Below are positions 55,129 to 59,412 of a DNA stretch of 64,000 nucleotides, piece by piece. A program made the position numbers and the translations under genes. The stretch spans positions 62,001 through 126,000 of the forward strand of contig JAKTTT010000059.1 in NCBI GenBank assembly GCA_030581615.1. Reading direction: 5' to 3'. Numbering within the stretch: the stretch's first letter is position 1; every line of letters starts with the position of its first letter. A model generated the notes under the pieces. It was given only the letters and a program-made list of their open reading frames with translations. It was not told the origin of the DNA and searched no databases. This DNA is from Alloascoidea africana. Lineage: Eukaryota > Ascomycota > Alloascoideomycetes > Alloascoideales > Alloascoideaceae.

Positions 55129-55896
55129 ATGACTACAAGCAAAGTTTACTTTATTACTGGAACTAACCGAGGAATTGGTTTGGTTTTGGTCAAAATTCTT
55201 TCACAGAATACAGACAACTTTATCATTGGTACCGCCCGTCAACCAAACAAAGCAACAGAGTTACAGGATTGGATCAAGGAGCATGATAATGTGAAAGTGG
55301 TTAAAATGGATGTGACCCAAGAGGAGAGCATTATAGAGGGAATGAAGCAAACCAAAGAAATCTTGGAAGGCAAGCCTATTGATTGCCTGATTTCTAATGC
55401 TGGCGTGGGAACTTCGTTCCTGTCAATGCGCGATACAAGCGTTCAAGACCTTGAGGACCATTTTAGAGTGAATGTGATTGGACCCGTAACATTGGTCAAG
55501 CACTTCTATCCTTTGTTGGAGAATGGAATAGACAAGAAGATAGTTTTTGTCTCAAGTATTGCAGGGTGCGTTGGAGGGTTCATTGGCGCACAATGTGGAG
55601 CCTACGGCACGTCAAAAGCTGCCCTGAACTATGTTACTAAGGCTCTGTCATGCGAGCTTGGGGAAAAGGGATTTACAGTTATTTCATTGCATCCCGGTTT
55701 GGTGGAAACCGATATGCTTGCAGACTGCTTCTCTGATATTGAGAAGACACTGGAGGAAGATATTTTCTTGCAGTTCAAGAAGCAACAGATTACCACCGAG
55801 GAGTCTGCTACCTCCCAGATCAAAGTGATTCAGGCCCTGACTACTAAAGACAATGGATCTTTCCTCTCCTACGATGGTTCAGTGGTGCCATGGTAA
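55129..55896 (+). CDS. short-chain dehydrogenase/reductase (copy 1)
   Basis: 255 residues from 55129; an in-frame ATG at 54973 lies upstream of the TATA box and adds 52 residues before the nucleotide fold. Classical SDR motifs: TGTNRGIGL cofactor loop, DVTQ, ISNAGVG, the catalytic Ser in VFVSSIAG and Tyr/Lys in YGTSKAALN, then HPGLVETDM. It resembles the yeast Nre1/Irc24 and YKL071W-type NADP(H) ketone/aldehyde reductases. TARQPNK after strand 2 suggests NADPH preference. The C-terminus GSFLSYDGSVVPW is shared with copy 2 (GKFLSYTGSPLAW), so the pair is a tandem duplication. Cytosolic; substrate unknown. Confidence 0.9.
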   Translation: MTTSKVYFITGTNRGIGLVLVKILSQNTDNFIIGTARQPNKATELQDWIKEHDNVKVVKMDVTQEESIIEGMKQTKEILEGKPIDCLISNAGVGTSFLSMRDTSVQDLEDHFRVNVIGPVTLVKHFYPLLENGIDKKIVFVSSIAGCVGGFIGAQCGAYGTSKAALNYVTKALSCELGEKGFTVISLHPGLVETDMLADCFSDIEKTLEEDIFLQFKKQQITTEESATSQIKVIQALTTKDNGSFLSYDGSVVPW

Positions 55897-57079: not shown

Positions 57080-57844
57080 ATGACAGTCTACAAAAAAGTT
57101 TATTTTATCTCCGGTGCAAACAGAGGATTAGGCTTTGCCCTTTTGAAACAATTAAGCGAAACTCCAGAGAACTTTGTTATCGGAACTGCCAGAACCCCAG
57201 AACGCGCGGCCAAACTAAGAGAATGGACAAAAATCCATACAAATACAAGGCTCATCCAGCTTGATGTGACTGACGAAGACAGTGTCGCCAAAGCTGTTGA
57301 AGAAACTAGCAAACTGGTTGATGGAATTGATGTCTTGATTTCTAACGCAGGAATATCGACAACAATTGCTCCTGTAATCAATACACCAGTTGCTCGTTTT
57401 GAAGAAATTTTCAGAACAAATACTTTAGGTTCTATCAGCGTGGTCTCTAAATTTCATCCACTTCTTTTGAAAAAAGAAACTCGAGAAATAGTTCTCATTT
57501 CATCAATCGCAGGCTCGATAGGTGACCACATAAACAGTTTCTGTGGCGCTTATGGCATGTCAAAAGCAGCCTTGAATTATCTTGCAAAATCTCTATCTCT
57601 TGAACTGGAAAACGATGGTTTCGTAGTTGCTGCTCTCCATCCTGGTGTGGTGGACACAGAGATGCTCCAGGACTGCCTTGTTCAAGCAGAAGCTCTATCT
57701 GGACACGAGGCAAGAAAAACATATGACGATGTTACTATCACTACCGAAGAATCGGCCAAAGCATTAGCCTCTGTTATAAACGGATTGACTAAAGACAGCA
57801 ATGGCAAGTTCCTTAGTTACACGGGTTCCCCATTAGCCTGGTAA
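57080..57844 (+). CDS. short-chain dehydrogenase/reductase (copy 2)
   Basis: 254 residues. The cofactor loop SGANRGLGF, the TARTPER pocket, LDVTDEDSV, ISNAGIS, catalytic Ser in LISSIAGSIG, YGMSKAALNYLAK and HPGVVDTEM match copy 1 throughout, including the final LSYTGSPLAW. It is a tandem paralogue about as diverged as members of the Nre1/Irc24 group. Likely an NADPH-dependent carbonyl reductase in the cytosol; the different mid-region (STTIAPVINTPVARFEE versus copy 1) suggests different substrates. Confidence 0.9.
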   Translation: MTVYKKVYFISGANRGLGFALLKQLSETPENFVIGTARTPERAAKLREWTKIHTNTRLIQLDVTDEDSVAKAVEETSKLVDGIDVLISNAGISTTIAPVINTPVARFEEIFRTNTLGSISVVSKFHPLLLKKETREIVLISSIAGSIGDHINSFCGAYGMSKAALNYLAKSLSLELENDGFVVAALHPGVVDTEMLQDCLVQAEALSGHEARKTYDDVTITTEESAKALASVINGLTKDSNGKFLSYTGSPLAW

Positions 57845-58140: not shown

Positions 58141-59412
58141 ATGTCATTCTTTAGTAAGATCGCCGCAGCTCCTCCAGAGCCCTTGCTTGCGCTGGCCACG
58201 AAATATTCGTTCGACAATTGCACTTATAAGGTTAACCTTAGTATTACCGCGTATCGTGATAATGATGGAAATCCCTGGGTTCTGCCCAGTGTAAAGTTGG
58301 CCGAGGAGAAACTCCTTCAAGATTCAAACCACAATCATGAGTATCTTCCGATAACGGGCTTCTATCCTCTTGTTGAAAGGTCAGCTGCAAATCTGGTCTT
58401 TGGAGAAAGTTCGATGCCTCAGCATAGAGTCACACTACAGACCTTGAGTGGAACTGGTGCTCTTCACTTGACAGCCACGTTTTTGGCCAAGTTCAAGTCG
58501 AGCATTGGTACCAATGGATGGAGCCCAAAAGTCTATATCTCAGATCCAACCTGGGAAAAACACCGCCAAATTTTTGAGAATGCCGGGCTCAGAGTTGAGA
58601 AGTATCCGTATTGGAGCCCAACCACTCTGGGTTTAGACTTTGAAGGCATGAAGACAAAACTGGAGTCTGCCACTTCTGGTTCTATCGTCGTGCTGCAGAC
58701 TTGTGGACATAACCCAACAGGAGTAGACCCAACTCATGAGCAATGGGTACAAATCTTTGAGATAATCAAATCAAGGAGACTACTCCCTGTATTTGATTTT
58801 GCATATCAAGGCTTTGCAACAGGATCACTTGAAGATGATGCATGGCCTATAAGACATTTTGCTGCTAAAAAGGAGGTTGAACTTGTAGTATGCCAATCTT
58901 TTGCAACAAATTTCGGACTTTATGGCGAGCGTACTGGTGCCCTTCACATTGTCCTTAACGATTCTATTACTGCCAACTCGATAAAATCTCAACTTGCAAT
59001 GATTCAAAGGAATGAAATTTCAAACCCGCCTTCCTATGGTGCAAAAGTAGTAGCTAGAATTCTTAATGACCCAACTCTTTTCAAACAGTGGACTCATGAC
59101 CTTGAGATAATGTCGAATAGAGTACGATTGATGAGACATATGCTAAAAGAAACTCTAGAAACTTTGAAAACACCAGGTAATTGGGCTCATCTTACTAATC
59201 AAAAGGGCATGTTTTCCTGTACAGGATTAAATGAAGAACATGTTGATACACTTCGAGATAAATTTCACATTTATATGAGAAGAGATGGAATAATCTCAAT
59301 AGTTGGGTTGAATCTTCAGAATGTGGAATATGTTGCAAAAAGTATCGACCATGTGGTTCGAGAGAAAGCTAAGGCGTTAGGAGGTGTAAGCAAGACAGAA
59401 TCCCAGATTTAG
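58141..59412 (+). CDS. aspartate-aminotransferase-like protein lacking catalytic Lys (pseudoenzyme candidate)
   Basis: 423 residues, colinear with fold-type I aspartate aminotransferase (Aat1/Aat2, ~418-450). Retained: EYLPITG, LSGTGALHL (phosphate cup), SDPTWEKH, CGHNPTGVDPT, FDFAYQGF (Asp under the pyridine ring, Tyr), SNPPSYGAK and YGERTG. Changed: the PLP-binding lysine of the family motif SFAKNFGLY is Thr256 (SFATNFGLY, codon ACA); the Arg of GRIS-AGL that grips the substrate alpha-carboxylate is Ile384 (GIISIVGL, codon ATA); and LGVGAYR reads LSITAYR. The frame is otherwise intact from start to stop. Lys is required for transamination in this family, so ordinary AAT activity is not expected. 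It may be a regulatory or structural paralogue, or an early-stage pseudogene. It ends SQI, not a clear peroxisomal signal. Confidence 0.92.
   Translation: MSFFSKIAAAPPEPLLALATKYSFDNCTYKVNLSITAYRDNDGNPWVLPSVKLAEEKLLQDSNHNHEYLPITGFYPLVERSAANLVFGESSMPQHRVTLQTLSGTGALHLTATFLAKFKSSIGTNGWSPKVYISDPTWEKHRQIFENAGLRVEKYPYWSPTTLGLDFEGMKTKLESATSGSIVVLQTCGHNPTGVDPTHEQWVQIFEIIKSRRLLPVFDFAYQGFATGSLEDDAWPIRHFAAKKEVELVVCQSFATNFGLYGERTGALHIVLNDSITANSIKSQLAMIQRNEISNPPSYGAKVVARILNDPTLFKQWTHDLEIMSNRVRLMRHMLKETLETLKTPGNWAHLTNQKGMFSCTGLNEEHVDTLRDKFHIYMRRDGIISIVGLNLQNVEYVAKSIDHVVREKAKALGGVSKTESQI

Follow-up and report, generated by a model that had tools for sequence, protein, structure and literature searches.

An intact aspartate aminotransferase paralogue without the Schiff-base lysine in Alloascoidea africana, a candidate pseudoenzyme

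Results

An open reading frame of aspartate aminotransferase descent with a changed active site

The window analyzed here is a stretch of 64,000 nucleotides of the Alloascoidea africana genome, on a contig (JAKTTT010000059.1) designated C59 in our scan of 23.18 Mb in 138 contigs. On its forward strand, at positions 58141..59412, lies a paralogue of aspartate aminotransferase (AAT), a textbook pyridoxal phosphate (PLP) enzyme. The gene consists of 423 codons in one open frame with no stop or frameshift, preceded by an A-rich leader, and its 423-aa product matches the Pfam family Aminotran_1_2 (PF00155) over residues 30-402 with 237.5 bits against a cut-off of 19.7; no additional regulatory or output domain was found in the chain. 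By descent, the gene is clearly a class I-alpha AAT. The preliminary description of this DNA had placed here an intact AAT paralogue without its PLP lysine, and both the coordinates and the frame are as it gave them. Upstream on the same strand are two short-chain dehydrogenases/reductases (SDRs) of one subfamily arranged in tandem, the nearer at 57080..57844, with its Ser-Tyr-Lys residues kept, and the second at 55129..55896.

Residues of reference AATs are given below in pig numbering and those of the window protein in its own numbering. Two defining features of a working AAT are missing from the window protein. The Schiff-base Lys258 is replaced by Thr256 (ACA, 58906..58908, forward strand as for all codons given here), where the three cytosolic-type paralogues of the same genome have AAG, AAG and AAA; Arg386, which binds the substrate α-carboxylate, is replaced in the alignment with 87 other AATs by Ile384 (ATA, 59290..59292). 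Both replacements had been noticed before and are borne out, as is the change of the LGVGAYR motif to LSITAYR, which itself contains a third, that of the first-shell Gly38 by Thr36 (ACC, 58246..58248), two base changes from the codon of each of the three paralogues. The earlier statement that the other cofactor-pocket residues are kept holds for the PLP cup, with 13 of 16 first-shell residues matching the three cytosolic-type paralogues, and three further changes are found that it had not listed: His189 to Gln186 (CAG, 58696..58698; His in 87/87 others), Ala192 to Gly189 (GGA, 58705..58707; Ala in 8 and Cys in 79 of the 87 others) and Asn142 to Lys140 (AAA, 58558..58560; Asn in 86/87), the last introducing a lysine two positions away from Trp138. 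Recoding of CUG was considered as a cause of the changes and rejected, since the codons concerned are ACA, ATA, ACC, CAG and AAA; of the 21 CTG codons that the four genes contain, 17 fall in columns that are mostly Leu.

Conservation of the active site

The comparison set (n = 87) consisted of 7 eukaryotic AATs and 80 prokaryotic ones, those that scored best among 581 relatives recruited through two conserved motifs that exclude Lys258, Arg386, Gly38 and His189. Each of these four columns is invariant in 87/87 AATs, and the window protein departs from the family at all four. Among the 79 columns with at least 95% conservation, 8 are lost in the window protein, and as many as 7 are lost in one of the other AATs compared; the bare count of losses is the less striking observation. 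A leave-one-out count on columns invariant in eukaryotic AATs gave 7/95 changes for the window copy, 1/96, 2/97 and 5/100 for its cytosolic-type paralogues, 27/122 for the mitochondrial-type paralogue, 14/109 for the human enzyme, 12/107 for that of S. pombe and 3/98 for that of S. cerevisiae. The number of changed eukaryote-invariant columns is thus not special alone; the identity of those columns is. A pattern search of viral contigs returned 53 matches, with no relative among them.

A published list (PMC3823064) names 16 AAT residues within 3.4 Å of PLP or maleate; on this first-shell list, 13 of the 16 residues are kept in the window protein and three, Gly38, Lys258 and Arg386, are changed. 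This pattern indicates that the Schiff-base and α-carboxylate side of the pocket has been lost, and that the PLP cup and Arg292 have been kept. All nine PLP-cup residues (Tyr70, Gly108, Thr109, Trp140, Asn194, Asp222, Tyr225, Ser255 and Arg266) are present, and the partner-subunit residue Arg292, which contacts the side-chain carboxylate, is retained as Arg290. An AAT subunit contributes Tyr70, Arg292, Ser296 and Asn297 to the active site of its partner, and all four are kept in the window protein, as they would also be if their role were only structural.

The AlphaFold2 model of the window protein, guided by 42 sequences, has an intact AAT fold with a pLDDT of 93.5 and a pTM of 0.92; confidence is lower in the C-terminal tail (blocks of 71 and 51) and, to a lesser degree, at residues 121-130 (79). 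As a homologue-guided model of the monomer, it does not demonstrate folding in the cell. Foldseek identified yeast cytosolic AAT (1yaa) as the top PDB match, with a TM score of 0.92 and an rmsd of 1.5, and its 50 best matches included the lysine mutants K258H (1aka) and K237A (4w5k) of other AATs. Of the solved relatives, the cytosolic enzymes of S. pombe and S. cerevisiae are the best. With the structures of the S. cerevisiae cytosolic enzyme (1yaa), the S. pombe enzyme (6jpk) and human GOT1 (6dnd), the window protein has 46-50% identity and TM scores of 0.91-0.92, and it shares their length, fold, PLP-phosphate cup, Tyr70, Arg292, Ser296, Asn297, Asp222, Tyr225 and Arg266; it differs from them in lacking Lys258, Arg386, Gly38 and His189.

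Canonical paralogues and a repeated dehydrogenase neighbourhood

The preliminary description had suggested a search of the genome for canonical AAT paralogues, and at least four normal ones were found, on contigs C62 (L002), C17 (L003), C58 (L004) and C19 (L005), each with the residues discussed above intact. L005 is of the mitochondrial type and the other three are of the cytosolic type. The nearest paralogue to the window protein is the C62 AAT, at 65% identity, and in a tree of 18 rows the two group together with fair support (only 82/77); synonymous sites are saturated. The C62 AAT carries a long Thr/Ala/Ser-rich C-terminal tail beyond the conserved domain (about 1351-1480 of L002), which is absent from the other four AATs of the genome. 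The C-terminal ends, read by eye, are SQI in the window protein, TKY in L002, ARL in L003 and SHL in L004; the last two, which we take to be PTS1-like, may mark two peroxisomal AATs in this genome. Neither the window protein nor the C62 AAT has, by eye, a PTS1-like end or an N-terminal extension like that of the mitochondrial-type copy.

An SDR lies upstream of the AAT, on the strand of the AAT, at both loci, about 0.3 kb away in the window and about 1.1 kb away at C62, with a low-complexity frame that overlaps the AAT lying between the two genes. The nearer window SDR has 17 matches in the genome including itself, and the top four are the two window SDRs, a copy on C30 (45%) and the copy on C62 (44%; L019, 2332-3360, reverse strand); there is thus a set of four close SDR copies, of which two stand in tandem upstream of the window AAT and a third precedes that of C62. 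No AAT match was found on C30, and the flanks of the C17 and C58 AATs (about 8 kb on each side) contain no such SDR match. The SDR relative upstream of both AATs, together with the grouping in the tree, makes it probable that an SDR-AAT block was duplicated long ago, and the repeated neighbourhood could hint at a shared pathway. Elsewhere in the genome, a third carboxylesterase/lipase match (L017, G000:C21:14273-15832) contains three in-frame stops (1 TGA, 2 TAA) and appears to be either a pseudogene or an intron-split gene.

Rate of change and selection

The window gene has a terminal branch of 0.46 in the 18-row tree, against 0.11 for its C62 sister. Among columns on which the three cytosolic-type paralogues are unanimous, the window copy is uniquely changed in 54/255, and the same count gives 8/209 for L002, 16/217 for L003 and 19/220 for L004. 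On these two measures, the rate of evolution of the window gene is four to six times that of its C62 sister. Its GC3 of 0.363 falls between those of its two neighbours (0.345 and 0.374), with no sign of base drift. A comparison of dN and dS, which had been proposed for orthologues of sister species, was run here with our own codon model: omega = 1 on the window-gene branch was rejected (lnL -5760.68 vs -5752.14, a cost of 8.5 log units), which is the only use to which the model is put, since dS is saturated, the omega value itself is not estimable and the fitted values of about 0.02 mean little. In these fits the L005 branch was at the length limit, as was the L002 branch in two of them.

We scored a replacement as accepted when at least one of 84 other AATs has the new residue at the corresponding position. 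Outside the first shell, 40 of the 51 replacements in the window protein were accepted, compared with 35% for random non-synonymous mutation (P ~4e-10), and the paralogues gave 7/8, 14/16 and 16/19 (37/43 together). Requiring that the residue be seen at least twice gave 31/51 vs 24% for random mutation, restricting the panel to prokaryotes 38/51 vs 33%, and restricting it to four eukaryotes 18/51 vs 11%. Taken with the rejection of omega = 1, these accepted changes indicate that selection filtered the scaffold during most of the divergence, while the catalytic residues were let go.

Within the first shell, none of the three replacements was accepted. Unaccepted changes occur in 3/16 first-shell columns vs 11/239 outside (Fisher P 0.048) and make up 3/3 of the first-shell changes vs 11/51 of those outside (Fisher P 0.015), a marginal enrichment for the strict first shell. 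A wider pocket list of 29 positions gave a stronger enrichment (Fisher 0.0017 and 0.0007); that list is post hoc, with positions 140, 189 and 220 added after the changes were known, and the conclusion rests on the published list. Restricted to conserved columns, the Fisher tests were mostly not significant: six with a threshold of 95-100% conservation gave P values between 0.047 and 0.145, two with one of 90% gave 0.042 and 0.0068, and two on columns invariant in the seven eukaryotic AATs gave 0.063 and 0.0085. In the lowest-entropy bin the window copy is changed in 7/54 columns and each of the three paralogues in 0/47; losses at conserved columns are also expected from a late neutral phase. 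With the strict list, the neutral share of the outside replacements fits best at 0.16, and with the wider list at 0.06; the 95% limits are 0.41 and 0.31, respectively.

Discussion

At about even chances, the window protein is a pseudoenzyme of the class I-alpha AAT family, probably derived from duplication of an SDR-AAT block and with the fold, the PLP cup and the trans-donated residues kept. The preliminary description had left the choice between a pseudoenzyme and very recent decay. On the data from this one genome the former is favoured as the better fit, because canonical paralogues are present, omega = 1 is rejected, the replacement spectrum outside the first shell is non-random and resembles that of the paralogues, and the predicted fold is intact; decay is weakened, with up to 41% of the outside replacements (95% limit, first-shell split) still allowed to be neutral. 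Partner or regulator of a working AAT comes first in our ordering of the readings, followed by decay as the main rival, then a free sensor, then new chemistry.

Recent decay would mean that the duplicate was constrained until lately and is now drifting, the active-site changes being the first random damage before any stop has appeared, and we regard this as somewhat unlikely. The fast branch (54/255 columns) and the changed conserved columns would be expected from it, and at the strict 95% limit some 37 replacements gene-wide would be neutral and 2.2 stops expected, so that an open frame would not be rare and three first-shell hits would have a P of 0.17. If all replacements were neutral, however, 5.2 stops would be expected and the probability of none is 0.005. 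The outside replacements look accepted rather than random, and the best-fit neutral share is 0.16 or 0.06; at that share the first-shell hits have a P of 0.017 and the wider-pocket hits, on the partly post hoc list, one of 2e-6, and at the upper limit the two values are 0.17 and 0.011. The neighbouring SDR, moreover, keeps its catalytic residues.

A free-standing putative sensor or binding protein for PLP/PMP or amino acids, working without an AAT partner, is an improbable alternative. It accords with the retention of the PLP-cup residues other than the lysine and with the fact that Lys-less AATs can be crystallized (1aka, K258H; 4w5k, K237A), and K258A AAT, described as dead in passages of PMC12018205, is rescued there by added amines; but dicarboxylates should bind less well once Arg386 and Gly38 are lost, and the chain carries no added regulatory or output domain detectable with Pfam. 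Those same two losses argue against amino-acid transamination and hence against changed chemistry, in which a relocated lysine, or no Schiff-base lysine at all, would serve a new substrate. We think this very unlikely, even with a candidate in Lys140 beside Trp138, which, of the ten lysines new to this protein, is the sole one lying no more than three positions from a first-shell residue, and with a new Arg380 and Arg381 just before position 384 of the lost arginine. That an ordinary AAT has been misread or misassembled is hardly credible, because many codons are changed, scattered along a frame that stays open, and Gly36→Thr takes two base substitutions; the branch is 0.46 long, and the neighbouring GH63 gene has one assembly match, so that no second haplotype came to light there.

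Under the favoured pseudoenzyme reading, a dehydrogenase-AAT block would have been duplicated and one copy would then have lost its Schiff-base and α-carboxylate residues while retaining the fold of an AAT, its PLP/phosphate cup and the partner-donated residues. From its residues, such a protein would form no internal aldimine and carry out no transamination at a useful rate, and it may still hold PLP or PMP non-covalently. The kept PLP cup and partner-donated residues favour a role as partner or regulator of the cytosolic-type C62 AAT, pairing with which would be its most likely job; both chains lack, by eye, a mitochondrial-type extension and a PTS1-like end, and the two group in the tree with only 82/77 support. 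A mixed dimer would have one working site, built from the catalytic residues of the C62 chain and Tyr70*, Arg292*, Ser296* and Asn297* of the window chain; the second site would be silent, and the window chain could tune the amount, stability or location of the AAT. The more specific proposal of a natural half-site AAT, in which a normal AAT has the Lys-less chain as its partner, obligate or regulatory, and the one live site borrows Tyr70*, Arg292* and Asn297*, is tentative and on balance unlikely. A bolder and likewise tentative form of it would make Lys140 a relocated Schiff-base lysine.

AATs are known as homodimers, and LCB1 shares their fold type. In glycine decarboxylase, of a different family, the Lys-less chain GcvPA stands beside a Lys-bearing chain. 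The laboratory AAT mutants K258A, K258H and K237A lack the same lysine as the window protein; they are man-made, and their other pocket residues are intact. Human LCB1, in passages of PMC3794620, has no PLP lysine and is thought to act with LCB2 as a heterodimer with a single active site. Like LCB1 (SPTLC1 of serine palmitoyltransferase), the window protein is a Lys-less homologue that coexists with active, Lys-bearing PLP chains in the same genome; it differs in family and reaction, and pairing is established for LCB1, whereas we infer it for the window protein. Lys-less chains of PLP enzymes are already known, and in openly licensed papers we found none in the AAT family proper and no report of a natural inactive or Lys-less AAT; the one pseudoenzyme named in passages of PMC6522883 is PDX1.2, of vitamin B6, and those of PMC7497351 do not concern an inactive AAT paralogue.

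If the pseudoenzyme reading is true, the AAT scaffold would be usable without its chemistry, with the fold still under selection, and A. africana would offer a natural system in which to ask what AAT subunits do besides catalysis, such as partner control, PLP storage or sensing. A half-site AAT, if true, would be an arrangement like that of LCB1/LCB2 invented anew in the AAT family.
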